Virus record (IMG/VR): IMGVR_UViG_3300025162_000016
Location: 250,001 to 314,000 of that record
Strand: one strand, 5' to 3'
DNA from: a virus
DNA length: 64,000 nt
Part shown: piece after piece, positions 5,754-56,561 of the stretch
Layout of the letters: every line of letters begins with the position of its first letter
How positions within the stretch are numbered: position 1 is the first letter of the stretch
Notes under the pieces: model-generated
Told to the model about the DNA's origin: nothing
What the model saw: the letters and a program-made list of their open reading frames with translations, nothing else
Database searches by the model: none
Translations under genes and position numbers: made by a program

Positions 5754-5766
5754 TAAAATATAAAAT

Positions 5767-6267: not shown

Positions 6268-6272
6268 AAAAC

Positions 6273-6917
6273 ATGAATAAAAATGATTATCGGGAGCATT
6301 ATCGGGATTTGTTTGCGGGTGCGGTATACCGAGGTGAGACGAACTCAAAGAACACTAGTATAGTTAGCGGTGTAGCTTTGCCTATAAAGAATTTATTTTT
6401 GAAGGGGAAGATATATGGGAAGGTAATTGACTATGGGTGTGGGCAGGTTGATCGTAACGGCAAGTATTTGCGGGAAAACGGGTTGAAGGTATATTCATAT
6501 GATCTTAATTGGGGTACCGAAGTAGATGGTTACAGTGGGATAAGCAATATACGGATTGAAGATCATTTTGATGTTGGGTATACGAGTTATGTTTTGAATG
6601 TGGTAGGTGAGAATGATCAGGAGGATATATTGAAATATATGGATGTTCATTGTGATCATCAGTATAATGTGGTACGGAATATGGATGTATATCCGATGCT
6701 AGTTAAGGCATTAGAGCGAAGGGATAAGACGGTTATGGATTTTTATTTAAACAAGTTTGGAGGTAAGCCGGAAGATATTGGAAATAAGGAAGTGATGATG
6801 GCGTTTGCTAAATTTGGGACTAAGACGAGCAAGGGGTTTCAGAGGATAGTATATTTGGAAGGTATGGGGTATAGATTAATAGAAAAGAGTACTGGGTTTA
6901 AAATATACGAGAAGTAG
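6273..6917 (+). CDS. SAM-dependent methyltransferase-like protein
   Basis: 214 aa from the ATG at 6273 (an in-frame upstream start would overlap DHFR). KVIDYGCGQVDRNGKYL matches the glycine-rich SAM-binding motif I (DxGCG), and VYSYDLN a motif II-like acidic strand end. The catalytic motif is not clear, so target and activity are unknown. Very few C-rich codons compared with its neighbours. Confidence 0.55.
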   Translation: MNKNDYREHYRDLFAGAVYRGETNSKNTSIVSGVALPIKNLFLKGKIYGKVIDYGCGQVDRNGKYLRENGLKVYSYDLNWGTEVDGYSGISNIRIEDHFDVGYTSYVLNVVGENDQEDILKYMDVHCDHQYNVVRNMDVYPMLVKALERRDKTVMDFYLNKFGGKPEDIGNKEVMMAFAKFGTKTSKGFQRIVYLEGMGYRLIEKSTGFKIYEK

Positions 6918-7041
6918 ATATAACGGAGAAGGAAGCGTTGCATATTGCGAAGAGCATAGCTAATTCGACAAAAAAGTAAAAAACGACAACAGTTTAACCT
7001 AACGGGGCAAGAAATCCCCCGATAAAAAAGTGGGAAAAGAA

Positions 7042-7070
7042 TTGACAAATTGCGATAGATGATATAGAAT
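7042..7070 (+). promoter_or_regulatory. promoter of the DNA ligase operon
   Basis: TTGACA (7042-7047), 17-nt spacer, TAGAAT (7065-7070), giving a leader of about 35 nt before the ligase ATG. It lies in the gap 6918-7111, where nothing else is evident. Confidence 0.7.
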
Positions 7071-7111
7071 GTTAGGACTGATAGAAAATCAAAGCCATCG
7101 CATATAACATT

Positions 7112-8329: not shown

Positions 8330-8899
8330 TTGAATCGATATATTTGTTTTGATACGGAAACCGGCGGTACAACTCTTGATACCAGCCTGTTTACCGCTTG
8401 TTTTGTTGCATTAGATGAAAATCTTAATGTCGTAGATGAACTTGATTTATTGGTAAAACCTGATAATGATCAATATGTTGTAACAGCTCAAGCTTTAACC
8501 GTTAATCATATTAATATAATTGCCCATGATGGTGTCGCCATTCCATATAAGACAGCAAAGCCAAAATTGTATCAATTCTTACAAAAAAATTCAAATGGCG
8601 GAGCCGAAAAACTTACTCCAATTGGACACGGAATTTATTTTGATATTCTTAGAATTAAACAAGATTTAATTGGCGCTGGAACATGGGATACTTTTGTTAG
8701 CTATAGGACAATAGATACGTCTATCATCTGTCAATTTTTACGAGCGGCTAAATTGTTTCCTGATGACGTTTCTGGATCATTGGGAAGTCTGGTGAGTTAT
8801 TTTAATCTATCTCCACAAGGAGAGTTACACACCGCACGGACTGATACATTACAAACGGTTGCCGTGTTAAAAGAACTACTAAAAATTGTAAAAAAATAA
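8330..8899 (+). CDS. DnaQ-like 3'-5' exonuclease
   Basis: 189 aa from a TTG abutting the ligase stop. Exo I motif YICFDTETGG, a central PIGHGIYFDIL (Exo II-like), and C-terminal ELHTARTDTLQT (Exo III HxAxxD) identify the DEDDh exonuclease family. It is a stand-alone nuclease domain for DNA or RNA trimming or proofreading. Operon with the ligase and the phosphoesterase at 8901. Confidence 0.8.
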   Translation: MNRYICFDTETGGTTLDTSLFTACFVALDENLNVVDELDLLVKPDNDQYVVTAQALTVNHINIIAHDGVAIPYKTAKPKLYQFLQKNSNGGAEKLTPIGHGIYFDILRIKQDLIGAGTWDTFVSYRTIDTSIICQFLRAAKLFPDDVSGSLGSLVSYFNLSPQGELHTARTDTLQTVAVLKELLKIVKK

Positions 8900-8900
8900 T

Positions 8901-9542
8901 ATGATGACGCTTAGGACTACTGACCAGAATGTATTTTTTACTTCTGATTGGCATTGGAATCATGGACAATCATTCGTATGGGAGAAACGGGGATATGCTT
9001 CGGTTCAAACCCATAATGAAGCTTTAATTAAATCCATGAACGATAGTGTTGGTCAGGAGGATATTCTTTTTAATCTGGGTGATTTGGTACTTAATTGTTC
9101 TATAGAACAATTTGAGTCTCTTATTTCTCGTATTATTTGCCAAAATATTTATTTAATGGCGGGAAATCATTCAAACCCGCATTTTAAAAATATTTATAAA
9201 CCAATAGTTCAAAAATTACTTGGGGATAATTATACTCCAGAGAGTGAAGTGTATCCTCTTCGATATAAGAATGTTGTTTATATTAATCATTATATGGAAA
9301 TATCCGTTAATGATCAATTTATTGCGATGTCTCATTATCCAAACCTAATATGGAATCATTCGGGTAAAGGAAGTTGGATGCTTTGCGGGCATAGCCATTC
9401 TAGTTGTCAGATGACAAATAGCAAAAGCAATTACGGAAAAATATTGGATGTTGGATTTGATGAGTTTAAACGTCCATTGACATTTCAAGAAGTGAAAAAA
9501 ATAATGGATATTAAAATTATATCGGCGGTTGATCATCACTAA
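8901..9542 (+). CDS. calcineurin-like metallophosphoesterase
   Basis: 213 aa. Metal-binding motifs in order: FFTSDWHWNHG (DxH), LFNLGDLV (GDxx), LMAGNHSNPH (GNH), AMSHYPN and LCGHSHSS (GHxH). This is the compact phage/bacterial phosphoesterase family, a hydrolase of phosphoesters of unknown substrate. Two bp after the exonuclease in the same operon. Confidence 0.8.
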   Translation: MMTLRTTDQNVFFTSDWHWNHGQSFVWEKRGYASVQTHNEALIKSMNDSVGQEDILFNLGDLVLNCSIEQFESLISRIICQNIYLMAGNHSNPHFKNIYKPIVQKLLGDNYTPESEVYPLRYKNVVYINHYMEISVNDQFIAMSHYPNLIWNHSGKGSWMLCGHSHSSCQMTNSKSNYGKILDVGFDEFKRPLTFQEVKKIMDIKIISAVDHH

Positions 9543-9577
9543 TCCATACTCATTGTTAGCGATAAAATATAAAATAT

Positions 9578-10162
9578 ATGAATAAATATTTAGATGAATA
9601 TCTTTGTAAAAAATACCCGAAAATATTTCAAGATAGAAACGCTCCTATGGCGGAGACGTGTATGTGTTGGGGATTTCCAGGCAACGGGTGGTTTTTTTTA
9701 TTAGACACTTTATGCGAGGGAATTCAGCATCATATTGATAACCCCCCTTATGTCTATAAGAAATCTGTTAAGTTTGGGTTTAAACGGCTTTGGAATGGTA
9801 TGGTAATTAAATTCCGTTTGCCCTATAAATGGACATACGGCGAATTAATGGAACCCTCAGTAATTTCGCAGGTTATAGCTTTACAGGTTAAGGAAAAATT
9901 TTCATCGTTGCGTTTTTATTATAGTGGAGGGGACAAAAAAATTAGAGGAATGGTTACTTTGGCGGAGCATATGTCGGCTCATATTTGTGAAATATGTGGA
10001 AAGATGAATGAGGAAATAGGTAGGAACACTAAAGGATGGTCGGTTACTACGTGCAAAGGGCATTCTAATGGCGCTCGGGATTTCAAATTTAATTATGATG
10101 CCGCAGAGATAACGACGTGGGAAAATGTTCGTGAGGAGATCGCAGGAAAGCCCGCCTCATGA
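9578..10162 (+). CDS. conserved phage-type protein with CxxC site, unknown function
   Basis: 194 aa. Contains KYPKIFQDRNAPMAETCMCWGF near the N-terminus, KEKFSSLRFYYSGGD in the middle and a C-terminal ICEICGK (CxxC, likely zinc). I believe similar proteins occur in other large phages but cannot name a function. Overlaps the next gene by 4 bp. Confidence 0.6.
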   Translation: MNKYLDEYLCKKYPKIFQDRNAPMAETCMCWGFPGNGWFFLLDTLCEGIQHHIDNPPYVYKKSVKFGFKRLWNGMVIKFRLPYKWTYGELMEPSVISQVIALQVKEKFSSLRFYYSGGDKKIRGMVTLAEHMSAHICEICGKMNEEIGRNTKGWSVTTCKGHSNGARDFKFNYDAAEITTWENVREEIAGKPAS

Positions 10163-10602
10163 TAGGCGTGAATAAACCGTTTGATAAAGGTCTTCACACA
10201 AAAAACGATCCGAAATCTCGCCGATTGATTAAAGATTTTTTTGCTGAACGTGGATTGGTTTTAATAGACCATCCAAACAAATATGACATTGACTTAATAT
10301 CGGAAGACGGTATAATTCGAGTGGAAGTTGAACATCGTTTAAATTGGGTAAATGCAGTTTTTCCTTATGCAGAAATAAACGTGCCAGAGAGAAAGGCTAA
10401 ATTCTTTGCGAAAGGAAAAGCTCATTACTGTATTTTATCTAAAGAATATGAATATGTTGGATTTATATCTGCTGAAAAAATTCAGAAGTACATAAAACCT
10501 AGATTTCTAAAAGAATCCAGTAATCGATTTGTAAAAGAAAATGAATTTTTTTATAAAGTCCCAAAAGAAGAATTTGAATTTTATCAAGTAACAGTTGAAT
10601 AA
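10159..10602 (+). CDS. PD-(D/E)XK-like nuclease candidate
   Basis: 147 aa. YDIDLISEDGIIRVEVEHRLNW resembles a restriction-endonuclease-fold core (D...ExE), followed by FPYAEINVPERKAKFF. Substrate unknown. ATGA overlap with the upstream gene implies coupled translation. Its 3' end abuts a solo IS end. Fold assignment is by pattern only. Confidence 0.5.
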   Translation: MIGVNKPFDKGLHTKNDPKSRRLIKDFFAERGLVLIDHPNKYDIDLISEDGIIRVEVEHRLNWVNAVFPYAEINVPERKAKFFAKGKAHYCILSKEYEYVGFISAEKIQKYIKPRFLKESSNRFVKENEFFYKVPKEEFEFYQVTVE

Positions 10603-10722
10603 AACATCGAAAAAGTTAAAATATTTTTGTGGTTGACAAATTGAGGTAATTGGTGTAGGATATTAAGAATGGTCGGAATTCCTCCCCGAGGCTAAAGCCG
10701 TCGGGGTTTCCTTCCTCCAAAA
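10602..10722 (+). mobile_element. solo left end of TnpB1-type element, with outward promoter
   Basis: About 115 bp almost identical to 26816-26935, the upstream end of TnpB element 1, including the CAT that would be the tnpB-proximal start region. No tnpB follows. It contains TTGACA-N17-TAGGAT (-35 at about 10634) and then a hairpin CCCCGAGGCTAAAGCCGTCGGGG-like stem with the CTAAAG core. The promoter reads into the gene at 10725, so the residue supplies that gene's promoter and structured leader. Confidence 0.75.
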
Positions 10723-10724
10723 CA

Positions 10725-10943
10725 ATGAATGAACCTAAAGTAGAATATCAATTAGAGAAAGCGGTCACCGGTAAAGTGGAAAAAAAAGTGCCGGTTGTAT
10801 TAGAAGATAAAGAAGGCAATAAAATTCGAGCCCCATGGGCACCAAAAGCAAATTGTAAACGGTGTCTCGGACGAGGTTATATGGGGATGTCAACTATAAC
10901 AAACGTATTACTTCCTTGTCGTAAATGTTATCCTTGGCAATGA
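10725..10943 (+). CDS. small zinc-ribbon protein
   Basis: 72 aa. C-terminal CKRCLGRGYMG...LPCRKC has two CxxC pairs, the first in a DnaJ-like CxxCxGxG context, so it binds zinc. No further function. Transcribed from the IS-derived promoter. Confidence 0.6.
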   Translation: MNEPKVEYQLEKAVTGKVEKKVPVVLEDKEGNKIRAPWAPKANCKRCLGRGYMGMSTITNVLLPCRKCYPWQ

Positions 10944-10944
10944 T

Positions 10945-11280
10945 ATGACTAATAATGCCAAAGATTATCTTGTTGAAGGTCCACTATATCCTTCGTTCAT
11001 CCATCTGTGGAAAGACGATTTGTCTATGTTATCCGACGTTCCACTTGATTGGAAAGAGCGAGAAGTATTTCGGATTTTTGCATCGAAAATATATGAACGG
11101 TTAACTCAGCCGCAGGTTATTCAGAAATTTGTCAATGACGCATATGAAGATGGATATCAAGAGGGAAAAGAGAATGTGATAGAAGCCGTTATAATAGAGT
11201 TGACAAAACTGGAAACCGGTAAATCCGAGGATGCTGTGGAGATATTGGAGCAAGCGATAAACTCATTGCGAATTATATGA
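10945..11280 (+). CDS. small protein, unknown function
   Basis: 111 aa, acidic and helical, with no recognised motif. Starts 1 bp after the zinc-ribbon gene and overlaps the macro-domain gene by 4 bp (ATGA), so the three are co-transcribed. Confidence 0.55.
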   Translation: MTNNAKDYLVEGPLYPSFIHLWKDDLSMLSDVPLDWKEREVFRIFASKIYERLTQPQVIQKFVNDAYEDGYQEGKENVIEAVIIELTKLETGKSEDAVEILEQAINSLRII

Positions 11281-11792
11281 TATATTTTTTAGAAAACACA
11301 AATTTATTAACATGGTATGAAGAACAAACAAAGCCTTGTGGTATTGGGCATAGTTGCAACTGCTTTCATACATTCGGAAGTGGCATTGCTAAATCTATTA
11401 AAGACGCATATCCACAAGCATATGCCGCAGATTTAACAACTTTGCGGGCATCAAAAGATAAACTTGGAATTTTTTCTTGTGCAACAATTCAGACAGTCCC
11501 TCATAAGATAATTTATAATATCTATGGTCAATTTGATTTTGGGAGAGATAAGCGATATGATTTTGGGAGAGATAAGCGATATACCTCATATGATGCTTTA
11601 TTTGATGGCGTGTCAGCAATGCGAAGTCATGCTATTGAAAATGATATAGAGCTACTTGGATTGCCGCAAAATATCGGGTGTTATCGGGGCGGAGCAAATT
11701 GGAACATCGTGGAAGCGATTTTACGAGAGATTTTTGCGGCAGATAAAGCGTTATCGTTAGTAATATGTCATTATAATCCTTCGCCGATTTAA
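11277..11792 (+). CDS. macro-domain protein (ADP-ribose binding or hydrolysing)
   Basis: 171 aa. GHSCNCFHTFGSGIAKSIKD matches the macro-domain loop NCxGxxGxGIA, and LPQNIGCYRGGANWNIVEAI matches the second loop (IGxGxGG..W..V). Such domains bind ADP-ribose or remove it from targets. A 24-nt in-frame tandem duplication encodes DFGRDKRY twice (around 11534-11581), which lengthens a surface loop. Lies just upstream of the WGR-PARP gene. Confidence 0.75.
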   Translation: MIYFLENTNLLTWYEEQTKPCGIGHSCNCFHTFGSGIAKSIKDAYPQAYAADLTTLRASKDKLGIFSCATIQTVPHKIIYNIYGQFDFGRDKRYDFGRDKRYTSYDALFDGVSAMRSHAIENDIELLGLPQNIGCYRGGANWNIVEAILREIFAADKALSLVICHYNPSPI

Positions 11793-11794
11793 AT

Positions 11795-11989
11795 ATGAAA
11801 AAATTATTTGTAATATTATTCGGGATTATTGTTCTTATAAGTTTTCCCAGTTGTACAACCTATGTTGGTCCCGGTCCGGTTTATTGTCCTACTCCCGTCT
11901 ATTATTCTTCGCCAGTTTATTATCCTCCACCTGTTATTTTTTATGGGCCATATTGGCATTCGGATCATCGCTATTATTACCGGCGTTAA
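11795..11989 (+). CDS. small Tyr/Pro-rich lipoprotein
   Basis: 64 aa. MKKLFVILFGIIVLISFPSC is a lipoprotein signal with the lipobox Cys at residue 20. The mature part is Tyr, Pro and Val rich (repeats of PVYY). It would be membrane anchored and might affect superinfection or the host envelope (inference). Confidence 0.6.
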   Translation: MKKLFVILFGIIVLISFPSCTTYVGPGPVYCPTPVYYSSPVYYPPPVIFYGPYWHSDHRYYYRR

Positions 11990-12007
11990 AGTTTTTAAAA
12001 AAGGGAG

Positions 12008-12035
12008 TTGACTTTTTATACCGAACCGGTATACT
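12008..12035 (+). promoter_or_regulatory. promoter of the PARP gene
   Basis: TTGACT (12008-12013), 16-nt spacer, TATACT (12030-12035). The ATG at 12045 is 9 nt beyond the -10, leaving almost no leader. Confidence 0.75.
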
Positions 12036-12044
12036 CGTTTCAAT

Positions 12045-13316
12045 ATGGCAACTGTAATTAAAGAATTGCGATTAATCAACGTTGGGGTAGATGTGAACAT
12101 GAACCGCTGGTGGACGGGGCGAGTTTATGACAATGGGGACTTTGAAGCCGTGTGGGGACGGGTTGGTAATAGTGGGCAGAGTAAACTTTTCCCCGGTGGC
12201 GGAGAAACTAAACTGGAAGAGATGCGCCGGGACAAAATTAAGAAAGGTTATTCCGAACTGAAAACTGTTGGCGGTCCTGCTTCATCGGTTGTATCTGAAT
12301 CAAAACACATGGGCAATAGTGAACTTCGCCAAATCGCTAAAGCACAACTACTTAAAACCCAAAATCCCGTGCTGGATCGGTTGGTTGATCGGCTTATTCA
12401 AGCGAATGTTCATCGCATTACCACCTCTACTCAAATTCAGTTTAATTCTTCAACTGGATTGTTTAGTACTCCGCTCGGTATCGTTACTCCAGATGGCATT
12501 ACCGAAGCTCGTAATTTGCTGGTAACTTTAAATCATTGTGTTTCTCTCCGTGATTGGGCGTCTTATAAAATGTCGAGTGCGGTGAACCAGTATCTTCGCA
12601 TTGTTCCACAAAATGTGGGTATGAAACTGAGTGTCGAAGCTCTTTTTCCAGACGACGGAGCCATTCAAAAACAATCAAACATATTAGATTCCCTCGAATC
12701 TTCTTATCAAGCATTGCAGTCACAACCCGTCACTACCAATGCCACGGCAAAGTCAGTGGAGCAGGTATTCAAAGTGGATTTTGATGTGCTCAACGATCAG
12801 AAAGAGATTGATAGAATTGTACGGTGGTTTAATACGAGTAATAAGGCAATTCATGGATATTCGAATGTTAGGATCATGACTTTCCTAAAAATCAAAATTC
12901 ATGATAACTGGAACAGTTTTAATGAAAAAACTGGAAACATAAAGGAAATCTGGCATGGTAGCAGCGAAGCTAATTTGTTAAGTATTTTGAAAACGGGCCT
13001 AAAGGTAAGTCCTCCATCCACGACAACTCTCACCGGAAAAATGTTTGGTGAAGGTCACTATGGAGCGTTGGATAGTAGCAAATCCATGCAATATACATTT
13101 GGTAGGTTCAGTGGCCAGCATGGTAGTAGTGGATGGCTTTTTATTGCTGATTTTGCAATGGGGAATACATATTTTATCAATTCCTATGGCGGGAATAAAC
13201 CGGTCGGATACGATTCTATATGGGCAAAAGCGGCGAATACCGGACTGCGATTCGATGAACTGATTGTTCCGAGAGATAATCAAGTACGTCTCAAATATTT
13301 GATAGAAGTAAAATAG
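12045..13316 (+). CDS. WGR-domain poly(ADP-ribose) polymerase-like protein
   Basis: 423 aa. Residues about 5-75 form a WGR domain (NRWWTGRVY...AVWGRVGNSGQ). The C-terminal about 200 residues carry a PARP catalytic core: KEIWHGSSEANL (the HG NAD-binding motif), MFGEGHYGALDSSKSMQYT (the Y region) and FDELIVPRDNQVRLKYLIEV (the Glu of the H-Y-E triad). A helical linker separates them. It would transfer ADP-ribose from NAD to protein or nucleic acid. Its own leaderless promoter and the neighbouring macro domain and ADP-ribosylglycohydrolase suggest an ADP-ribose module. Confidence 0.8.
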   Translation: MATVIKELRLINVGVDVNMNRWWTGRVYDNGDFEAVWGRVGNSGQSKLFPGGGETKLEEMRRDKIKKGYSELKTVGGPASSVVSESKHMGNSELRQIAKAQLLKTQNPVLDRLVDRLIQANVHRITTSTQIQFNSSTGLFSTPLGIVTPDGITEARNLLVTLNHCVSLRDWASYKMSSAVNQYLRIVPQNVGMKLSVEALFPDDGAIQKQSNILDSLESSYQALQSQPVTTNATAKSVEQVFKVDFDVLNDQKEIDRIVRWFNTSNKAIHGYSNVRIMTFLKIKIHDNWNSFNEKTGNIKEIWHGSSEANLLSILKTGLKVSPPSTTTLTGKMFGEGHYGALDSSKSMQYTFGRFSGQHGSSGWLFIADFAMGNTYFINSYGGNKPVGYDSIWAKAANTGLRFDELIVPRDNQVRLKYLIEVK

Positions 13317-45775: not shown

Positions 45776-47116
45776 TGAACTACCCACCCTCTAAAGAGAG
45801 TGGGTTTCCGTTCCAACCAATTGCCCATTGTTTCCAATAGGTCTTACATCAGGACAAACGGCTAACCCAGTCGTTCCGACTGTTAAATTTAATCCTTGTT
45901 TTAGGATATTCAGAGATGCATTTAAATCTCTATCGTGTTTGTAGTTACATTTTGGACAATTCCACTCTCTATCTTTAAGTGTTAAATCATCTTTAATATA
46001 TCCACAGTTACTACAAGTTTTACTGGATGGGAAGTATCTATCAATTTTAATGACTTTTCTTCCATACCATTCACTTTTATAACATATCTGTCTTACTAAT
46101 TCTGACCAAGAACAATCTCCAATGGATTTAGCATATCTATGATCTCCCATCATATTTTTTACGGACAAATCTTCAAGTATAAGAGTTTGGTTTTCGCTCA
46201 CTAACTTGTGAGATATTTGATGTAAATGATTACTACGAATATTGGCAATTTTAACGTGGAGTTTTCCGAGTTTTAACCTTGCTTTAATTCTCCCGATGGA
46301 TTTTTTCCCAGTCCTACTAACTGATTTCTGTCTAATTCTAACTAATTTTTCTAATTGTTTGAGCGGTTTTATGTTTTTAAATCTAATTCCGTCTGAGCAT
46401 ACTACTAAGGATTTAATTCCCAAATCAATCCCAACAGCATTATTTAATTCTGATTTGATTTCAATGTTTTTAGTAACACCAATACACGCAAAATATTGTC
46501 CTGCTACATTACGACTAATAGTAGCATTTTCAATTGATCCTTCAATTTTACGATGTTGATCGATTTTTATTCCTTCTTTAAATTTGGGAAAATATATTCT
46601 TCCATCTTCTACAGAGACAAATTGTGGTAATCTAAATGATTGTTTACTTCTTCTATTTTTAAATCTTGGATATTTGGATTTTTTCTTAAAGAAACGATTA
46701 AAAGCAGTTTCTAGATGTTTTAAAGAATGTTGGAGTGATTGAGAATTACACTCATTTAACCATTCGGTTTCCGTGTTTGATTTGAGTTTTGTTAACTCTG
46801 CTGACATTTCATTATAATTTAATGATTTTTTAGCAAGTTGTTTTTCTTTTGCATTTAAGTAAAACTTAGTTCGTTTATCTAAAAATAGATTATACACATA
46901 ACGAATACTTCCGAAATGTTTAGACAATAATATCTCTTGTTCCTTTGTAGGATAGATTCTAAATTTATATGTATATTGTCTATTCATTTATACGAAATTT
47001 TGTTTCTCGTATAATACATATCGTTCATTTTCTCAAAACATCAAAATAATTTAAAATATTTTATTGGTCGCCATTCATCCCAAGGTCTAAAGACACTTGG
47101 GTTTTCTGGCGACACA
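45776..47116 (-). mobile_element. IS605/IS1341-like TnpB element 3
   Basis: Right-end hairpin CCCACCCTCTAAAGAGAG... at 45784-45808 and left-end hairpin CCCAAGGTCTAAAGACAC... at about 47079-47101, both with the CTAAAG core used by the other elements. Only tnpB inside. A solo copy of its right end is at 30772. Confidence 0.7.
45791..46987 (-). CDS. tnpB: TnpB RNA-guided nuclease with Cys4 ribbon
   Basis: 398 aa. N-terminal TYKFRIYPTKEQEILLSKHF (OrfB helix-turn-helix), RuvC residues in AVGIDLGIKSL, QTLILEDLSVKNM and HDRDLNASLNIL, and a complete ribbon TCSNCGY...WNCPKCNY. This is the canonical form, unlike elements 1 and 2. The last codons form the right-end hairpin. Confidence 0.9.
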   Translation of the reverse strand: MNRQYTYKFRIYPTKEQEILLSKHFGSIRYVYNLFLDKRTKFYLNAKEKQLAKKSLNYNEMSAELTKLKSNTETEWLNECNSQSLQHSLKHLETAFNRFFKKKSKYPRFKNRRSKQSFRLPQFVSVEDGRIYFPKFKEGIKIDQHRKIEGSIENATISRNVAGQYFACIGVTKNIEIKSELNNAVGIDLGIKSLVVCSDGIRFKNIKPLKQLEKLVRIRQKSVSRTGKKSIGRIKARLKLGKLHVKIANIRSNHLHQISHKLVSENQTLILEDLSVKNMMGDHRYAKSIGDCSWSELVRQICYKSEWYGRKVIKIDRYFPSSKTCSNCGYIKDDLTLKDREWNCPKCNYKHDRDLNASLNILKQGLNLTVGTTGLAVCPDVRPIGNNGQLVGTETHSL

Positions 47117-47168
47117 GAGATAAAATAATTTATTGACTTTTATCGCACTCTGTGATACATATATAAAT

Positions 47169-47369
47169 ATGACTATTTCAATTAAAACCGCATCTCGTAA
47201 AGATATTCAGCAGTTCCAACGATGGGTTAAGTTACAACCTTGGTCTGAAATATCTTTTCTCCACGAAACTTACCTCCGAGATGATTGCCGTGAAGAAAAA
47301 TTGAAAATTCTCTTCGCCAAATTCTCCGCTCTACCACTAAATCAACGGTTTCCAGCGGGTGATAGGTGA
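47169..47369 (+). CDS. 66-aa protein, unknown function
   Basis: Start 47169 follows TTGACT-N17-TACATA with 7 nt between. Contains KTASRKDIQQFQRWVKLQPW. Its last codons enter the terminal CRISPR repeat (47365), so its 3' end was shaped by the array. Confidence 0.5.
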   Translation: MTISIKTASRKDIQQFQRWVKLQPWSEISFLHETYLRDDCREEKLKILFAKFSALPLNQRFPAGDR

Positions 47370-48344
47370 TATAGTGACTGGTCTGTTCCAGCACTTCACC
47401 GGCGAAGCACCTGCTCGGCAAGGACCGCTACCACGAGGTGGTGATATAGTAACTGGTCTGTTCCAGCACTTCACCATTACCGATGTTTCTTTATAGCATA
47501 TACATATAACGGCGGTGATATAGTAACTGGTCTGTTCCAGCACTTCACCTAGGCGACTGAGTTAGGGGCTTTTCCTATATAGCGGTGGTGATATAGTAAC
47601 TGGTCTGTTCCAGCACTTCACCTGAATATGCATTGCCTCTGGTGCAACAATTCGGATAGGTGATATAGTAACTGGTCTGTTCCAGCACTTCACCCAGATA
47701 GAAGATGATAAACCGGATTCTCTACTGATGGTGATATAGTAACTGGTCTGTTCCAGCACTTCACCTTGAAAGGATACCATAGGAAGGATATGTATTACTC
47801 ATGGTGATATAGTAACTGGTCTGTTCCAGCACTTCACCTAGAGTTTGCTTTTGATGAAAGCCAATATGCTGCGGGTGATATAGTAACTGGTCTGTTCCAG
47901 CACTTCACCTCTTTTTTTATTGCTCTATGAGCAGAGACTTGGCTCTGGTGATATAGTAACTGGTCTGTTCCAGCACTTCACCTCTTTTTTTATTGCTCTA
48001 TGAGCAGAGACTTGGCTCTGGTGATATAGTAACTGGTCTGTTCCAGCACTTCACCGTAGAGTTCAGCACTTGGAATATCCATTACTATGATAGGTGATAT
48101 AGTAACTGGTCTGTTCCAGCACTTCACCCATATTTTCCAGTTGGTTCGGGCAAATCAATCGTGGGTGATATAGTAACTGGTCTGTTCCAGCACTTCACCT
48201 TCTTTACTCCATTCCCAGAAGGCTAATGCGAGCGGTGGTGATATAGTAACTGGTCTGTTCCAGCACTTCACCAAATGCAAGTTATCACTATATTTCGCCA
48301 ACTCGAACGGTGATATAGTAACTGGTCTGTTCCAGCACTTCACC
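47365..48344 (-). CRISPR. CRISPR array: 14 repeats, 13 spacers
   Basis: 36-bp repeats start at 47365, 47440, 47514, 47587, 47659, 47730, 47803, 47874, 47947, 48020, 48093, 48164, 48237 and 48309. Spacers are 35-39 bp. In the transcribed (minus) sense the repeat begins GGTGAAGTGCTGG, has a CTGG/CCAG hairpin around AACAGA and ends TATATCACC, with 5-bp terminal inverted repeats GGTGA/TCACC. The leader-distal repeat (47365) has one change. Spacers 47910-47946 and 47983-48019 are identical. Orientation is set by the leader promoter at 48401-48429. Confidence 0.98.
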
Positions 48345-48442
48345 TGTATCCCTCGTAAGTAACGTATTATCAAAGAACTGTGTATCAATTTGCGAGCGGC
48401 AGTGTATTCTATTATCCCCGGTTTGTCAACATCAAATATCAT
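48345..48442 (-). promoter_or_regulatory. CRISPR leader with promoter
   Basis: On the minus strand: TTGACA (48429-48424), 17-nt spacer, TACACT (48406-48401), then CCGCTCGCAA at the expected start site and about 50 nt of leader to the first repeat. The same leader is duplicated at 31961-32074. Confidence 0.85.
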
Positions 48443-48477
48443 ATTTCGTAAGTTCCATATTATCAGCGAGTTACAAG

Positions 48478-48522
48478 TTGCGAGCGGCTACGGCATATTT
48501 GACGCCACCTAACCGCTCGCAA
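48478..48522 (-). terminator. inverted repeat between cas3-like gene and leader
   Basis: 10-bp arms TTGCGAGCGG (48478-48487) and CCGCTCGCAA (48513-48522) right after the cas3-like stop. The same decamer occurs in the leader at 48390-48399 and in the duplicate leader, so it may be an operator as well as a terminator stem. Confidence 0.5.
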
Positions 48523-48523
48523 A

Positions 48524-50800
48524 TTAACATAAAAGTCCCAGCTCAATATCATAATTAATATGATAGTTATTCAATGCCCACATTGTAATTGGGTCATCGG
48601 CATCGTCCCGAATTTTCTCTAGCGGTTCAATAATTCCGGCATTAAGTAATCGTTGGTGTACATTTCCAAATACCGTTACCGAATTTCTGCTAATATCCGC
48701 ATATCCGAGGGTAATATCTTTAGATTTAATTCTTTCAATGACAGTCGGATCGATTACAACTGTAAATTTTTGAGTTTTTATCAATCGCATTAAATTACCT
48801 ACGGTGCGGAGATTTCCCTTGGAAAAGTTATCTTCAATCCGAGAAATCATATTCCAATTGCTAGTTGTTAACGTGTCTCTCGCTGCCGATGTTCCCATTG
48901 CCGGAATCCATTCATTTTTTTCTAATTTACGAAATACATTAATCGCTCTTTGTGTCGTAGGATTAATAGTTATTGTTCCCTTTCGGATTAATGATTCAGA
49001 AAAACAAAAAACATATACTTTTCCGATTTTAAATTCATTATTCCTATTACATCTTCCGGTGCATTGTTGAAGTGAATCTAAACTGGTTTCTTCTCGATAA
49101 CACCGCTCAAATGATATATCAATACCACATTCTACCATTGAGGTGGCAATTAATATGACCGGTAATTCATCTTTTATTTTTTGTTTTATTAATTCCAATC
49201 TTTTTTCTCTAAACTCCGGTGTCACTCGACTACTCAAATGATAGACATTCCCATTTCCGCTATTCAATAATTTAAATAAAACCTTCGCATTATTAGTGGT
49301 ATTACATACTATTAAAGTAGAATGTTTGTTTTTATATCCATTAGTTATATGCCGACATAATTTACCTAATCCAATAGCTCCCAGATGCGATTTTTTAACC
49401 CGTGTATTTTCTCTCGCCTGAAAATGCTTCCATTCCGTATGTGTAAGCATATTATCCACTACTATATTTTTATGATATAAATCCCAAAAATCAATGGGAG
49501 TCCCGGAACTAAAAATAACGTGAACATTATAATTGTTTACTAATTTTTCTAATAAAAATAACGCATGTGACCATAATTCATATGGCATCGCTTGATGATA
49601 CTCATCAAGAACAATGACCGAATCCGTAAAATGAATGAGTTTCCCTATCGCTGCGGGATGATAAGTAGTCAATGCCTCGAAAAATTGCACGCAAGTAGTA
49701 TACGTTAATGGACCATCTAATCTATTATTATATTTTCGCAACCGCCAATCTGTAAACTGAACCATAGAATGATGCTCGTTAATAACCCCTACCTGATACT
49801 CTCCCGGTAACAAAAGAGATTCTTTTGCTTTACCAACAAGTTGATTGATAACATTAATATATGGGGCCACAATAAATATTCGTTCACACCCATATTTTTT
49901 TGCCATTTTCAATGCCTTTTTATGATTAGCATTGGTTTTACCCGAACCTACCGTACCATCGTTTTTTATCCAAGATGAGATAGATTCCCTATCCGCCGAC
50001 GCATAAAGAAGCTTCCGATCTTTAATTCTTTTACCGGGATTTATTTTACTTAATCCATCATTATATTTATCAAAATTTTCAATACGCTCATCCTCTCGAA
50101 GTTTATATGGCTCAGGTAGCACATATCCATCATTACGAAATTGATTGGTGTCGGCGTGATCAGCAGACACCATGCAGGAAAAACACTCTGATATATCATG
50201 CCAATCAACATTTTTAATATTAATGTTATACCCAACATCCGGCATTGAATCCGTAATAATTATATCTTCTTTATGTAGTTGTTCCCATATAATAAGATTA
50301 GCATCTACATAATCTCTTATACGATAATCCCGCCATTTTTCTTTAAGATGTATTTTGGTCGGCGATAACATTTGTGACGGATTAACAAGAGTAATTTTAG
50401 TTAATTCTTCCCAATCTATATAACCAATATGATGAGCCAATATCAGCCACGCTGCTAAAAGATAATATAATTCATTGGTTCGTTCATATTCCTTAATACA
50501 ATGCGATACTCCTGCATCAACATGGTTAAGCATTGACGTATCGCTTTCGCTTGATTGTGAAAGAATTGCTTGACATTCCGGCATCAATTTTCCCAAATCA
50601 TGCCATTCTGTAGCAGTTTCAAGTATTTTCCGATAGAAATTTACCATTTTTCTATTCTTATAATGACGAAATCTACGATCAAACTCCCGCAAGGCGTTAT
50701 TACGTACCGCATGAATGTGATCCCGATATAATTGCGGAGCAACTGTACGGTTCGATGCGTTCACCTGATAACCGGAATGGGCAAAATTTTCTGTCAGCAT
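48524..50800 (-). CDS. cas3: Cas3-like HD nuclease-helicase
   Basis: 758 aa. HD domain in residues about 25-220: H30, H67-D68 (ATEWHDLGKL), H93 (NHVDAGV), H123-H124 (LAHHIGY), D215. SF2 helicase follows: Walker A 285-289 (VGSGKT), DEYH 399-402 (VIVLDEYHQAM), motif III-like SSGTP 431-435, TSMVECGID at 553-561 and motif VI QQCTGRCNR 578-586. Order HD then helicase and the DExH form match Cas3 of type I systems, where Cas3 degrades DNA after Cascade recruitment. No Cascade gene is here; the only effector is the divergent Cas12-like gene. A weak leaderless promoter (TTGACT-N16-TTAAGC) precedes it. Confidence 0.85.
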   Translation of the reverse strand: MLTENFAHSGYQVNASNRTVAPQLYRDHIHAVRNNALREFDRRFRHYKNRKMVNFYRKILETATEWHDLGKLMPECQAILSQSSESDTSMLNHVDAGVSHCIKEYERTNELYYLLAAWLILAHHIGYIDWEELTKITLVNPSQMLSPTKIHLKEKWRDYRIRDYVDANLIIWEQLHKEDIIITDSMPDVGYNINIKNVDWHDISECFSCMVSADHADTNQFRNDGYVLPEPYKLREDERIENFDKYNDGLSKINPGKRIKDRKLLYASADRESISSWIKNDGTVGSGKTNANHKKALKMAKKYGCERIFIVAPYINVINQLVGKAKESLLLPGEYQVGVINEHHSMVQFTDWRLRKYNNRLDGPLTYTTCVQFFEALTTYHPAAIGKLIHFTDSVIVLDEYHQAMPYELWSHALFLLEKLVNNYNVHVIFSSGTPIDFWDLYHKNIVVDNMLTHTEWKHFQARENTRVKKSHLGAIGLGKLCRHITNGYKNKHSTLIVCNTTNNAKVLFKLLNSGNGNVYHLSSRVTPEFREKRLELIKQKIKDELPVILIATSMVECGIDISFERCYREETSLDSLQQCTGRCNRNNEFKIGKVYVFCFSESLIRKGTITINPTTQRAINVFRKLEKNEWIPAMGTSAARDTLTTSNWNMISRIEDNFSKGNLRTVGNLMRLIKTQKFTVVIDPTVIERIKSKDITLGYADISRNSVTVFGNVHQRLLNAGIIEPLEKIRDDADDPITMWALNNYHINYDIELGLLC

Positions 50801-50881
50801 TTTTTAGCTTAACTTTTTTCCTCCGCAAAGTCAATATTTTATTCGGTTTTTTGGATCAATCGATTTTCCCTAAAATAAATC

Positions 50882-50910
50882 TTGCTTTTTTTCGACAATA
50901 GTGTTAGGTT
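50882..50910 (+). promoter_or_regulatory. promoter of the Cas12-like gene
   Basis: TTGCTT (50882-50887), 17-nt spacer, TAGGTT (50905-50910), then 6 nt to the ATG at 50917. The 116-bp intergenic region holds divergent promoters for both cas genes. Confidence 0.6.
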
Positions 50911-50916
50911 AACACC

Positions 50917-53900
50917 ATGACAAAAGAAAAAATCAAAAAAACCAAAAAGGCAAAAGTAGAAAAAGACTCCGTAACACGGGCGGGTATTTTGCGGATATTG
51001 TTGAATCCAGATCAACATCAAGAACTCGATACTCTCATCTCTGACCACCAAGAGGCTGCTAGAGAAATTCAGACTGCGACATATAAATTATCTGGACTAA
51101 AGCTATATGACAAAACCAACAACATGGTGGTCGATGGTAGCAAAGCAACCCCCGAAGAACAAGAGGCTTATTATAAAATAATTAATTGGGAAGGTCAGCC
51201 AATTTCAATTTCCAATCCAATGGTGCGGGCTACATTTAAAAGTATAGCGAAAGTCAAAGAAGATATTCGTCGAAAACAGGAAGAGTATGCTAAGCTTGAA
51301 GAAGCGGATTTGACAAAAATGTCAACCGGTGATGTAAAAAAACATAAAAATGAACTTAGAAAAGCAGCAAACAGAATTAAACATTCTGAAGAGATTCTTC
51401 AGTTTGCCAAATGGCGACTTGCCGACATTTTTCCGCTCCCTCTATCGCACAACTCTCAGTTACATCTTAAAAATAACTATCACCAAAATGTATTCAGTGG
51501 ATTCCATGCACGAGTTAAAGGATGGAACGCATGTGATATTGCGGCTCAAGCAAATTATGCTGAGATAGATAACCGATTAACGGAGTTGTCTTCGGAATTA
51601 TCCGGTGATTATGGGAGCGAAGTTATAACCGATTTGATGGGCTTGTTACAATACACTAAAGAACTAGGAGAAGGATACACGGATACTTCTTATTTGAATT
51701 ATAAATTTTTATCGTTTTTTAAGGAATGCTGGCGACCCAATGCAATTGCTAATAACACCGGATTGCTAGAAGGATTTTGGCTGGCAAATAATAAACACAC
51801 CAATAAAAAAAATCAAGTTGCTTATTCTTTCAATCCAAAAATTAGTGAAGAATTGTTCCGACGAAGAAGTTTATGGGAATCTGATAAATGCCTTTTGTCT
51901 GATCCAAGATTTGAAAAATATGTTGAATTATTTGATAAACATGGTCGTTATCGTAAAGGAGCTTCCCTTACTTTAATTTCAAAAGAATCTCCCATTCCAA
52001 TCGGTTTCTCAATGGATCGCAATGCGGCTAAATTAGTCCGTATAGATAATGATACCGCCAATCGTCAATTAACCATTACTATCGAACTTCCCAATAAAGA
52101 AGAACGTTCTTATGTAGCTGCGTATGGACGTAAACATGAAACTAAATGTTATTATAATGGGCTTACAACAAGATTACCTCGTAGTGAGAAGGAGTTGCTT
52201 GCATTAGCCAAAGCAGAAAATCGTGAACTCACGGACAAAGAAATACATGAGGCATCACTTGAAAAGTGTTATATTTTTGAATATGCCCGAGCCGGTAAAA
52301 TACCGGTGTTTGCTGTCGTAAAAACATTATATTTTCGACGCAACCCGTCTAATGGTGAATATTATGTTATTCTTCCAACTAATATTTTTGTTGAATATCA
52401 CGCCAATAATGAATTCAATTCCAAGGAATTATTCAAAATTAGATCGGAGCTCCAAAAGGCATGGGATGAAGTTCGCACGCCTAAACGTAATGTTCAAAGC
52501 TGTGTTTTGGATAAAGACCTAAGTAAACGTTTTGCCGGTAGAACTTTGAAATATGCGGGAATAGACCTTGGATATAGTAATCCATATACGGTTAGTTATT
52601 ATAACGTGGTGGGAACAGAAGAAGGTATTCAAATCAAAGAAACGGGAAATGAAATTGTTTCTACGGTTTTTAATGAACAGTATATTCAACTCAAAGGGAA
52701 TATATACCAACTTATAAATATCATTCGTGCCTCCCGTCGATACTTACAAGAGAGCGGTGAATTAAAGCTAAGTAAAGATGATATTAAAAGTTTTGATCAA
52801 CTCATGGAGTTACTCCCATCCGAACAACGAATTACTATCGATCAATTCATTAAAGATATTAAAAAAGCAAAACAAGAGGGAAAGTTAATACGAGACATTA
52901 AAGGAAAACTCCCGGTTGAAGGGAAAAAGAAAGAATATTGGGTTATCAGTAATTTAATGTATGTTATTACTCAAACAATGAATGGTATTCGGGGAAATAG
53001 AGATTCTAATAATCATCTCACCGAGAAGAAAAATTGGTTGTCGGCTCCCCCATTAATTGAATTGATTGATGCTTATTATAATCTTAAAAAAACATTCAAT
53101 GATTCCGGTGATGGAATTAAAATGCTTCCTAAAGATCATGTATATGCCGAAGGAGAAAAACAACGGTGTACTCTAAGAGAAGAAAACTTCTGTAAAGGTA
53201 TTTTAGAGTGGCGGGATAATGTTAAAGATTATTTCATTAAAAAATTATTCTCCCAAATCGCTCACCGCTGTTACGAATTAGGAATCGGTATCGTAGCAAT
53301 GGAGAATCTTGATATAATGGGATCATCTAAAAATACTAAACAAAGTAATCGTATGTTTAATATCTGGCCCAGAGGACAAATGAAAAAATCTGCCGAAGAT
53401 GCGTTTAGTTATATGGGTATATTAATCCAATATGTCGATGAAAATGGAACCAGTCGCCATGATGCCGATTCCGGTATTTATGGTTGTCGTGATGGTGCAA
53501 ATCTATGGCTACCTAATAAAAAATTGCACGCCGATGTAAACGCCTCTCGAATGATCGCTCTACGAGGACTTACTCATCATACTAATCTGTATTGTAGAAG
53601 TTTAACCGAAATAGAAAATGGAAAGTACGTTAATACATATGAATTGTTCGATACCACAAAAAATGACCAAAGTGGAGCGGCAAAACGACTCCGTGGAGCA
53701 GAAACTCTTCTACATGGTTATTCCGCTACCGTATACCAAATCCATACCACAAACACCGGTGCCGGTGTTGCCTTACTACCTGACTTAACTGCAACCGATG
53801 TCATTAAAAATAAAAAAATCACCGCCACAAAAGAAAATACAGCCAAATATTATAAATTAGATAATACTAATACCTACTACCCATGGAGTGTATGTGAAAA

Positions 53901-53928
53901 ACTTCACAAAAATTGGAAACTATCATAA
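50917..53928 (+). CDS. Cas12-like RuvC effector (type V, subtype unassigned)
   Basis: 1003 aa. Residues 1-20 are Lys rich. A long helical N-terminal half follows, then the split RuvC: motif I KYAGIDLGYSNP (D550), motif II GIVAMENLDIMG (E796), motif III LHADVNASRMIALRG (D873). The conserved R/D near GCRDGAN (about 857-862) is present, but the Cys4 ribbon usual between motifs II and III is reduced to one Cys (C857). A 130-residue C-terminal extension follows motif III. Size fits Cas12 rather than TnpB. It lies beside the array and divergent from the Cas3-like gene. I cannot place it in a named Cas12 subtype by eye. Confidence 0.85.
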   Translation: MTKEKIKKTKKAKVEKDSVTRAGILRILLNPDQHQELDTLISDHQEAAREIQTATYKLSGLKLYDKTNNMVVDGSKATPEEQEAYYKIINWEGQPISISNPMVRATFKSIAKVKEDIRRKQEEYAKLEEADLTKMSTGDVKKHKNELRKAANRIKHSEEILQFAKWRLADIFPLPLSHNSQLHLKNNYHQNVFSGFHARVKGWNACDIAAQANYAEIDNRLTELSSELSGDYGSEVITDLMGLLQYTKELGEGYTDTSYLNYKFLSFFKECWRPNAIANNTGLLEGFWLANNKHTNKKNQVAYSFNPKISEELFRRRSLWESDKCLLSDPRFEKYVELFDKHGRYRKGASLTLISKESPIPIGFSMDRNAAKLVRIDNDTANRQLTITIELPNKEERSYVAAYGRKHETKCYYNGLTTRLPRSEKELLALAKAENRELTDKEIHEASLEKCYIFEYARAGKIPVFAVVKTLYFRRNPSNGEYYVILPTNIFVEYHANNEFNSKELFKIRSELQKAWDEVRTPKRNVQSCVLDKDLSKRFAGRTLKYAGIDLGYSNPYTVSYYNVVGTEEGIQIKETGNEIVSTVFNEQYIQLKGNIYQLINIIRASRRYLQESGELKLSKDDIKSFDQLMELLPSEQRITIDQFIKDIKKAKQEGKLIRDIKGKLPVEGKKKEYWVISNLMYVITQTMNGIRGNRDSNNHLTEKKNWLSAPPLIELIDAYYNLKKTFNDSGDGIKMLPKDHVYAEGEKQRCTLREENFCKGILEWRDNVKDYFIKKLFSQIAHRCYELGIGIVAMENLDIMGSSKNTKQSNRMFNIWPRGQMKKSAEDAFSYMGILIQYVDENGTSRHDADSGIYGCRDGANLWLPNKKLHADVNASRMIALRGLTHHTNLYCRSLTEIENGKYVNTYELFDTTKNDQSGAAKRLRGAETLLHGYSATVYQIHTTNTGAGVALLPDLTATDVIKNKKITATKENTAKYYKLDNTNTYYPWSVCEKLHKNWKLS

Positions 53929-53929
53929 T

Positions 53930-53965
53930 CGCCAAATGTTGTAACATATCAGTTATTATATCACC
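53930..53965 (+). repeat. degenerate CRISPR-repeat-like element 4
   Basis: ATATCAGTTATTATATCACC at its 3' end matches the repeat tail; the 5' half has decayed. Starts 2 bp after the Cas12-like stop. Confidence 0.5.
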
Positions 53966-54153
53966 GGCGAACTGTGAACTCTCGCAGAAACAAAAGAAAT
54001 GCTTTCTGCTTGACTTTTTCAAAAATATCGGTATCATACCAATATGAATGAATCATTGGTATGTGGACGGTTAACCGCCCATAAAAAACCTTGTCAAAAT
54101 TAACCCGTTTTTTATATTATATATATATAAAAACATATCTACGTATTCTTAAA

Positions 54154-54189
54154 GGTGAAGTGCTGGAACAGACCAGTTACTATATCACC
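54154..54189 (+). repeat. solitary CRISPR repeat 5 (perfect match)
   Basis: 36 nt identical to the array repeat in crRNA sense on the plus strand. The preceding stretch ACATATCTACGTATTCTTAA is duplicated before the copy at 54355. No adjacent second repeat. Confidence 0.9.
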
Positions 54190-54354
54190 GATATAATATC
54201 GGTAACATACCAATATGAATACAAAAACAGATATGAAACAATATGATACCGAAACCCTGTCCCCTCTCATCTATATAGTAAAAAAAATATCCTTACCTAC
54301 ATAAAGATATATCTACATATTCAAAATATAAAAACATATCTACGTATTCTTAAA

Positions 54355-54390
54355 GGTGAAGTGCTGGAACATATCAGTTACTATACCACC
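54355..54390 (+). repeat. solitary CRISPR repeat 6
   Basis: Differs from the array repeat by changes that weaken the central hairpin (ACAGACC to ACATATC) and one near the end. Same upstream sequence as the 54154 copy, so a tandem duplication about 200 bp apart. Confidence 0.8.
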
Positions 54391-54756
54391 CTATATCCCC
54401 CCCCTCCCCCCCCATATCACCAAAAAATAAAATATACCCTTATTCCTTTTTATATTCTATACCCTTCCCCCATCGCTATATGCTATTTTATAAAAACTAA
54501 ATATCTACAATATTAGTAGATTATAGGGTGTATATACGTATATACACGCCTTTTTTATACTATATTAATGTATTTCACCAATAATTTACAAAAATATATC
54601 CATAAATACGTATAAAGAATTATGGCGATAATAGTTTATAAAGCTTATAACGGCAGTGGTTTATATAACATAATATATTGCCGATATATCCTATATTAAT
54701 GATTTTATAAATAATTATAAAAGGATAGGCTGGCGACAAAAAGTTTCATTTAAAAC

Positions 54757-54998
54757 GGGTATTTCACCAATTTATTTTTATAAAAATAAATATTAACTCT
54801 AAGAATGGTATTTCACCAATTTATTTTATAAAAATAATTATTAATTCTAAAAATGGTATTTCACCAATTTATTTTTATAAAATAAATATTAACTCTAAGA
54901 ATGGGTATTTCACCAATTTATTTTTATAAAATAAATATTAACTCTAAGAATGGGTATTTCACCAATTTATTTTTATAAAATAATTAATAACTCTAAGG
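54757..54998 (+). repeat. five tandem 48-bp repeats
   Basis: Copies start at about 54757, 54807, 54855, 54903 and 54952. Each reads GGTATTTCACCAATTTATTT, an A/T stretch, then AACTCTAAGAATG or similar. The half-site AACTCTAA is half of the nearby palindrome, so one protein may bind both. Confidence 0.9.
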
Positions 54999-55115
54999 TT
55001 AGAGTTATTTTTTTTTTTAATAAATCTAAGGTTAGAATTAATCGGTGAAAATACCACTTGACGGGATAACTCTAAGGTTAGAGTTAATGAGAGGAATAAA
55101 TCTAAGGTTAGAGTT
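54989..55115. promoter_or_regulatory. cluster of four 18-bp palindromes
   Basis: AACTCTAAGGTTAGAGTT or one-mismatch variants at 54989-55006, 55022-55039, 55068-55085 and 55098-55115. More copies at about 57004, 59969, 61221, 62164 and 63603. Perfect 8-bp arms with a 2-bp centre are typical of a dimeric repressor or initiator site. Confidence 0.85.
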
Positions 55116-55250
55116 GATCGGGATATGGGTATAGTTGTACGTACTGGGAGGGAGAGAGGGAGGGAGGGGAGAGAGCGGGATATTTGGATTGGAAAGATTG
55201 CGGAAAGAATAGCTTGCTTTTTTACGAGGGAGTAGTAAGATGTAAGGAAT

Positions 55251-55436
55251 ATGATAACTAAATATAAATGTCCTCTATGTGATGGGTCAATGACGGCGAT
55301 ACCGGATAAGAAGGGTGTTATGGTGAAGTGCTATAATGAACCTTGTGATCCACAATGTAAGGAGAATGTCTTTGGACATGGGAAGAATGAAAAAGATGCT
55401 TGGGAAACGGCGTGTGAGAAATATCCGAAGAAATAA
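55251..55436 (+). CDS. 61-aa zinc-ribbon protein (Lar-like)
   Basis: YKCPLCDGSM and MVKCYNEPCDPQC form a ribbon; the tail KNEKDAWETACEKYPKK resembles the Lar/restriction-alleviation type small zinc proteins (A...W....). Function of that family is anti-restriction; here inferred only. Confidence 0.55.
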   Translation: MITKYKCPLCDGSMTAIPDKKGVMVKCYNEPCDPQCKENVFGHGKNEKDAWETACEKYPKK

Positions 55437-55532
55437 AACAATCTGGTTGACAAAAACAAATAAATCGGTATAGTTTGAAGTGTAATAGATAAACACGGTA
55501 AACAAAAAGCAGAATCGAAAGAAACAAAAATT

Positions 55533-56561
55533 ATGGCGCATCGCATCTTTGAGTATGACAGGCAGCAGGGTAAGGAGCAAGCATGGCACGGTAAGACGGT
55601 AATCACGCCGGATTTGACATTGGACAACAATTGGTTGCGGGAATGGGATTTGGTTCCTCGCAAGATTGCGGATTTGGAAAATAACGAAGAATTGCCTTGG
55701 GTGTATCTGCGTTGTTCGGATAATTCGGTTATTCGTGTTGGCCAGCCATATAATCCGGCGACTTTTCAGCCGGTGAACAATGCGGATTTCTTGGATATGA
55801 TTAAGGCCAGCATATCGGGCACACCGCATACGGTGAGTTCAGTAGGTTCCTTGCGCAATCGGGGCCGGGTATTTGTGAGCATTGAATTGATGGGAATGGA
55901 GAAATTCAAGGCGGCGGGCCGGGATTTTGGTGCATTCCTGAATTTCGGTAATGGACATGATAAGTCTTCGGTACTTTGGGTCAATACCAGCAACATTTGT
56001 ACGGTTTGCGACAATACGTTTTCGTGCAATCTGGTATCTGTAGAAAATAAGGTGACTAAGACGGATGATGATAACGTCCGAATCAGCCAGCGGCATACTA
56101 AGAATGTTAAATTGCGGTTGCCGGACATTGCTTCAATGGTAGATAAGGCTATTAGGGTACAGGCGGAATTCAAGCTGGAAATGGACAAGCTAGCTGCAAT
56201 AGCCGTAAGCCGAAACGGAGTTACCCAGCTCTTTGCTGGGTTCATTGGGCGCAATGTATCGGATAAAGCCAAGGGGTTATCAACTAGGGCGGTCAACACG
56301 GTTGCCAAGTTGGATGATTTGTTTGTCAATGGGCGGGGAAACAGGGGTGAAACGTTGGCCGATGCGTTTTCAGCTACCACGGACTTTTACACTCACTTTT
56401 CTTCTGGCGGTGAAAATGTGATGCGACAAATGGTATCGAGCGATTATGGGTCTGGTCAAGCCAACAAAGCAGAATTCTGGAATCTGGTTAGGAATGGGGA
56501 ATTGCGGGAAACAACCAGAGCACGGGGCGAAGAATTGTTAGTGAATACTGCTAAAGATTAG
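55533..56561 (+). CDS. DUF932 (phage/plasmid-like TIGR03299) protein
   Basis: 342 aa. MAHRIFEYDRQQGKEQAWHG, LRCSDNSVIRVGQPYNP, LNFGNGHDKSSVLWVNTSNI and CDNTFSCNL follow the conserved blocks of DUF932, common in phages and plasmids with unknown role. Much less AT-rich than its neighbours. Promoter TTGACA-N16-TATAGT at about 55447; terminator after it. Confidence 0.75.
   Translation: MAHRIFEYDRQQGKEQAWHGKTVITPDLTLDNNWLREWDLVPRKIADLENNEELPWVYLRCSDNSVIRVGQPYNPATFQPVNNADFLDMIKASISGTPHTVSSVGSLRNRGRVFVSIELMGMEKFKAAGRDFGAFLNFGNGHDKSSVLWVNTSNICTVCDNTFSCNLVSVENKVTKTDDDNVRISQRHTKNVKLRLPDIASMVDKAIRVQAEFKLEMDKLAAIAVSRNGVTQLFAGFIGRNVSDKAKGLSTRAVNTVAKLDDLFVNGRGNRGETLADAFSATTDFYTHFSSGGENVMRQMVSSDYGSGQANKAEFWNLVRNGELRETTRARGEELLVNTAKD

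Follow-up and report, generated by a model that had tools for sequence, protein, structure and literature searches.

The window analysed here, 64,000 nucleotides corresponding to bases 250001-314000 of the 368,758-bp virus record IMGVR_UViG_3300025162_000016, carries a CRISPR locus in which a gene for a Cas12-type effector stands back to back with a gene for Cas3. The CRISPR array (47365-48344, minus strand) comprises 14 repeats of 36 nt and 13 spacers, and is bordered by a leader (48345-48464, minus strand) with a promoter-like TTGACA-17-TACACT sequence that is common to four arrays of the genome. This leader adjoins cas3 (48524-50800, minus strand), which encodes a protein of 758 residues with an HD nuclease domain, a superfamily 2 (SF2) helicase domain and a C-terminal domain. 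A divergent intergenic region of 116 bp (50801-50916, assigned to no strand) separates cas3 from the cas12-type gene (50917-53928, plus strand), which encodes 1003 residues and starts ~2.6 kb from the array, so that the effector has a linked array. The first 7,102 bases of the virus record recur exactly at its end, indicating that the genome is circular and complete, with a length of 361,656 bp (coordinates in whole-genome numbering are given below as G000). It belongs to a tailed phage, with a major head protein, portal, large terminase, UvsX-like recombinase and DnaB-like helicase recognized through PHROGs. The GC content at third codon positions of cas3 and cas12 matches that of the genome, and hence neither gene looks newly arrived. 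The record IMGVR_UViG_3300009502_000028 represents the same phage with identical Cas loci, and does not count as independent support.

An earlier note, made by a model from the letters of this DNA, had described a 14-repeat array with leader, a protein carrying all the HD and SF2 helicase motifs of Cas3, and a divergent 1003-residue RuvC protein with a D-E-D triad. All three descriptions were borne out, and the hidden Markov model searches that it proposed for both proteins were carried out against Cas profiles.

Cas3 and the Cas12-type effector

Profile searches identify Cas3 with high significance (TIGR01587, 1e-29, above cut-off; PADLOC Cas3c, the best-scoring profile, 1.2e-88), and the Cas3 HD model TIGR01596 matches at 3.7e-8, under its curated cut-off. 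Every catalytic residue is present: the HD residues H28, H67, D68, H93, H123, H124 and D214, as well as K288, D399, E400, R583 and R586 of the Walker A, DExx and VI helicase motifs, are invariant in the window Cas3 and 29 relatives. Despite its long branch, the window protein has kept 31 of the 38 HD-domain positions at which bacterial HD domains show conservation of at least 90%. The C-terminal region is strongly diverged, with 19% identity to the clade, compared with 31% within it. An AlphaFold2 (AF2) model of Cas3 (predicted local distance difference test, pLDDT, 85; predicted template modelling score, pTM, 0.88) has two type I-C Cas3 structures, 8zns and 8g9u, as its top two matches, and a fold search of BFVD returned generic helicases only.

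The RuvC triad of the effector (D550, E796 and D873) is intact. Its profile searches gave weak TnpB/Cas12 domain matches near cut-off, a marginal PADLOC Cas12f match (0.019) and no match in Pfam or PHROGs. The nearest solved structures are Cas12X/CasJ19 (E 3e-7 with the single sequence and 4e-18 with a two-member profile), with Cas12X2 next, and with a three-member profile Cas12h (2e-11) and Cas12f (3e-9) follow in the PDB. The entry labelled Cas12j19/CasJ19 matches, and no other Cas12j-labelled chain does so at E<=1; likewise, at this threshold, neither a Cas12m-labelled nor a CasPhi-labelled match was found among solved structures. By its sequence, the effector is an unclassified Cas12-family protein nearest to Cas12X/CasJ19. 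Close relatives were found neither in the phages collection nor by direct scan of IMG/VR and genome contigs, and plasmids gave TnpB-level matches only. A scan for the WN.CD motif retrieved unrelated frames and was discarded.

Cascade and adaptation genes

The earlier note had found no Cascade, cas6, cas1, cas2 or cas4 in the window, and had named a Cascade elsewhere in the genome as a reason to abandon the pairing. Across the whole circular genome, the profiles PF09704 (Cas5), PF05107 (Cas7) and PF01867 (Cas1), which do give matches in control genomes, found nothing at E<=10, and PADLOC scans of the 207 other open reading frames of 150-1400 residues showed no Cas5, Cas6, Cas7 or Cas8 among the families listed, up to 25 per list. 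The claim therefore stands genome-wide for Cas5, Cas7 and Cas1, whereas for cas2, cas4 and cas6 no dedicated profile search was made, Cas6 being absent from the PADLOC families listed. A Cas1_IIIb match in the PADLOC scan accompanies a reverse transcriptase and is not supported by PF01867. The repeats of type I-C relatives end in ATTGAAAC, a 3' end that the window repeat lacks, so that the array neither is the remnant of an I-C array nor arrived with Cas3.

A second phage with the same pair, and the probable origin of Cas3

Scanning IMG/VR with an alignment of Cas3 yielded 18 loci, among which a phage contig of 59.8 kb (L128, also G001; sample 3300014838) carries the same pair. Its Cas3 is 33% identical to the window Cas3 over 737 residues (E 5e-103), and its Cas12, reached through Cas3 alone, has 936 residues, 22% identity over 822 residues to the window effector (E 9e-26) and the same RuvC residues. 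The two genes are directly divergent and 135 bp apart, as in the window layout, and phmmer found no Cas5, Cas7 or Cas8 homologue in the 59.8 kb. The search for the pair in other phages, as the earlier note had advised, has hence located a homologous locus that keeps Cas3 beside Cas12, and its view of the two genes as one locus without Cascade is supported by both the complete genome and L128. The presence of the same pair in a second virus suggests that the two proteins probably work together. Two other genes shared by these phages, at window positions 57833 and 55533, are 62% and 56% identical, so that Cas12 and Cas3 evolve faster than those genes.

A maximum-likelihood tree joins the Cas3s of the two Cas12-bearing loci in one group (92/80), whose sister group (99/97) consists of Cas3s from the phage I-C loci L129 and L130, with cas5-cas8-cas7, and from bacterial I-C loci in which the genes run cas5-cas8-cas7-cas3. 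Of the 80 nearest bacterial Cas3 loci, nearly all those with enough flanking sequence show type I-C cas5/cas8/cas7, and none has a homologue of the window Cas12. Because the partner Cas3s group together beside Cascade-linked I-C Cas3s, the most likely scenario is that a type I-C system supplied Cas3, which was then retained as the partner of Cas12.

L129 and L130 are the closest Cascade-bearing phage relatives of the window Cas3. L129 (IMGVR_UViG_3300005613_000001, 527,112 bp, locus 5232-12205) and, likewise, the phage record L130 show a compact I-C set, cas5-cas8-cas7-(gap)-cas3; L129 has an array of the GTTTCAACCC type nearby, the region carrying a GTTTCAA-type repeat that differs from the window repeat. 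Two GenBank records named 'Bacteriophage sp.', MT837094 and MT836695, also carry type I-C cas operons, and are probably bacterial scaffolds mislabelled as phage.

Proposed mechanism and rival explanations

Cas3 belongs to type I systems, where it is recruited by Cascade, and type V effectors act alone. The reading to which we give slightly better than even chances is that the phage carries, in this locus, a CRISPR-Cas system that is a hybrid of class 1 and class 2, in which the R-loop formed by Cas12 is handed to a Cas3 derived from type I-C. In such a system, the 1003-residue Cas12 would bind CRISPR RNA (crRNA) from the arrays and form an R-loop on the target DNA, which its RuvC might also nick or cut. 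Cas3 would then take the place of the Cascade-recruited Cas3, loading on the strand left exposed or nicked and unwinding and degrading the target processively. The RuvC domain might provide a nick as the loading site, make a full cut, or serve in crRNA processing only, and the target would probably be competing mobile DNA or host DNA. We infer the use of crRNA by Cas12, the physical or functional coupling of Cas12 to Cas3, the order of events and the target. Three points lead us to prefer the handover: the lineage of this Cas3 works on R-loops; Cas12 and Cas3 have stayed together, each with its active site intact, through deep divergence; and a comparable pairing of Cas12m with an I-C-like Cas3, whose Cas12 carries crRNA, has been proposed independently (PMC10910872). 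A narrower version, to which we give somewhat less than even chances, is that this phage lineage evolved an interference module whose Cas12, competent as a nuclease and belonging to a subtype not yet described, passes its R-loop or nick straight to the captured I-C Cas3, so that one protein would stand in for all of Cascade while processive shredding is kept.

Several observations weigh against the handover. The branch of the window Cas3 is long (2.1), which leaves its exact position in the tree unsure, and the support for the clade of partner Cas3s is moderate. Only two loci carry the pair, and the L128 contig stops 115 bp beyond cas12, placing its array, if any, outside view. The AF2 model of Cas12, built without homologues, reaches a pLDDT of 35, too low for a Cas12-Cas3 interface. 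Spacer searches gave chance-level matches alone in the phage's own genome and none in the phages collection, and two spacer seeds are absent elsewhere in IMG/VR. Furthermore, the case as a whole is computational, and an intact RuvC might be enough for interference even if Cas3 took no part.

This last property of RuvC is what favours a different division of labour, in which Cas12 alone is the RNA-guided nuclease and Cas3 is a later accessory that, without specific recruitment, degrades cut or nicked host or rival-phage DNA, for instance to finish the kill or to recycle nucleotides. The intact triad fits it well, unlike the Cas12m case, where Cas3 would supply the missing cleavage, but by itself it leaves unexplained why a Cas3 of CRISPR lineage was kept beside Cas12 in two diverged phages, and we regard it as unlikely, if worth keeping in mind. 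The triad bears in the opposite direction on the idea that Cas12 is an RNA-guided binder or silencer, like Cas12m or Cas12c, with the Cas3 helicase displacing it or cleaving occasionally: some Cas12 subtypes do interfere without cleavage (PMC12669027), but the conservation of all three acidic RuvC residues in both homologues makes such a role very improbable here.

The I-C ancestry of Cas3, whose bacterial and phage relatives mostly lie beside cas5-cas8-cas7, would also be compatible with a Cas3 that works with, or interferes with, a host type I-C Cascade while Cas12 uses the array independently. However, the I-C relatives have repeats unlike that of the phage, what is conserved is cas12 together with cas3, neither copy having a cas5, cas7 or cas8 homologue around it, and the C-terminal region of Cas3 has diverged strongly, all of which renders this arrangement improbable. 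A genome with homing endonucleases and 15 near-full-length TnpB-like genes experiences heavy gene traffic, and the two genes might be chance neighbours without any functional link; nevertheless, a second phage has the same pair, equally divergent in orientation and with 22-33% identity, and the partner Cas3s are monophyletic, which leaves this reading strongly disfavoured and, in our estimate, of very low probability.

Should the handover to Cas3 be correct, the boundary between class 1 and class 2 CRISPR systems would have been crossed in nature, and a single-protein effector would be able to recruit Cas3. The pair would then offer a compact (~5.3 kb) means of Cascade-free, RNA-guided processive DNA degradation, and one would have to ask what it is used to shred in huge phages. 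Direct tests are possible, since both phages, diverged as they are, carry the pair with its catalytic sites intact.

Relation to described systems

On the one hand, the locus shows the features of class 2 type V systems: a single large effector with the RuvC D-E-D residues, sequence kinship to Cas12 and a linked array. On the other hand, it contains the Cas3 HD-helicase of type I-C, with neither Cascade nor the ATTGAAAC repeat end, and the adaptation profile for cas1, PF01867, has no match. The statement of the earlier note that no described subtype has both proteins does not hold, since a putative 'Class-1-2 hybrid' of Cas12m and an I-C-like Cas3 has been reported, in which Cas12 co-purifies with its cognate crRNA and Cas3 is proposed to supply target degradation after Cas12 binding, Cas12m not being known to cleave DNA (Altae-Tran et al., 2023, PMC10910872). 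This hybrid is absent from the accessible part of the 2025 classification. The window locus shares with it an I-C-like Cas3 adjoining a Cas12, but differs in that its effector has 1003 residues and an intact triad, is nearest to Cas12X/CasJ19 and resides in a huge phage, whereas their Cas12m is compact with a non-canonical RuvC. Size, triad and sequence search provisionally indicate that the effector is not Cas12m, the published Cas12-Cas3 loci being set apart by their description rather than by sequence comparison. Provisionally, then, a Cas12-Cas3 hybrid as such is known, and a larger, unclassified Cas12 with a catalytic triad, in phages, is new.

Cas12X, CasJ19 and Cas12X2 (PDB 8zqb, 8wru, 8zqc, 9ix6) are the closest solved sequences, aligned over the RuvC-II/III region, but only ~160-170 residues align confidently with the effector; no information was found on any Cas3 partner of these proteins. 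With type I-C systems of bacteria, and of huge-phage loci such as L129, the window locus shares the lineage and fold of Cas3, but here Cas5, Cas8c and Cas7 were not found, the repeat is not of the ATTGAAAC kind and Cas12 replaces the effector. Huge phages with a type I-C variant and CasPhi, without acquisition genes, have been described (Al-Shayeb, 2020, PMC7162821). They resemble the present phage in joining an I-C part and a type V effector in a genome with no acquisition genes, yet they keep Cas5 and another helicase instead of Cas3, whereas here only Cas3 is present.

Arrays and solitary repeats

The repeat of the window array, in RNA sense GGTGAAGTGCTGGAACAGACCAGTTACTATATCACC, recurs at a spacing of 71-75, and its 26-nt core has 0 expected chance matches. 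The 13 spacers, of 35-39 nt, include 12 different sequences, one being duplicated. The repeat RNA folds into a 4-bp loop stem with outer stems (-13 kcal/mol, z -2.9). Two compensatory pairs among repeat copies (1-36, GC to AU; 3-34, UA to CG) do not exceed shuffles (40/500), and covariation is only suggestive support for the fold. The array has its degenerate terminal repeat at the 47365 end, a rule that the other three arrays follow, and together with the leader position it indicates that the window array is transcribed on the minus strand, away from cas3. Those three arrays, at G000 9141-9612 (minus strand, seven repeats), 331573-332059 (plus strand, seven repeats) and 333064-333910 (plus strand, 12 repeats, with an internal spacer duplication), have the same repeat and ~120-nt leader. 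At G000 229885 and 282075, a leader, its sequence partly shared, precedes a single repeat with no spacer; these loci are remnants or empty arrays. Two TnpB-like genes lie no more than 0.5 kb from a CRISPR array; besides the near-full-length copies (for instance, window 45791-46987 and G000 7596-8672 and 328866-330041), there is one fragment of 78 residues.

Some 17 solitary repeats, all on the plus strand and often paired with a degenerate second copy, are scattered over the genome, at window positions 29857, 32075, 32812, 54154, 54355, 57083, 57172, 59895, 60032, 61190, 61268 and 61735, and at G000 12987, 229885, 314770, 330454 and 350540. The copy 3' of cas12 (54154-54189) is 100% identical to the array repeat, and the next (54355-54390), with three mismatches, has ~29 nt of upstream sequence in common with it. 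Both were considered as anti-repeats of a trans-activating CRISPR RNA, but they have the repeat sense on the cas12 strand and are not obvious anti-repeats; Rfam gave no match to such an RNA in 46900-56000. In other phages, lone repeat units that match host repeats have been described as RNA anti-CRISPRs (PMC11656645), whereas the solitary repeats here match the phage's own. A comparison of their tails with the genome disclosed no convincing regulatory targets. Several start with A and end with T, the terminal G-C pair being replaced by A-T, and some, situated 11-130 nt ahead of a gene and directly after promoter-like sequences, possibly lie in 5' untranslated regions. Further 3' of cas12, five AT-rich tandem units of ~49 bp (GGTATTTCACCAATTTATTTTTATAAAA...) occupy 54751-55000 and are followed, at 54988-55121, by several TCTAAGGTTAGA palindromes.

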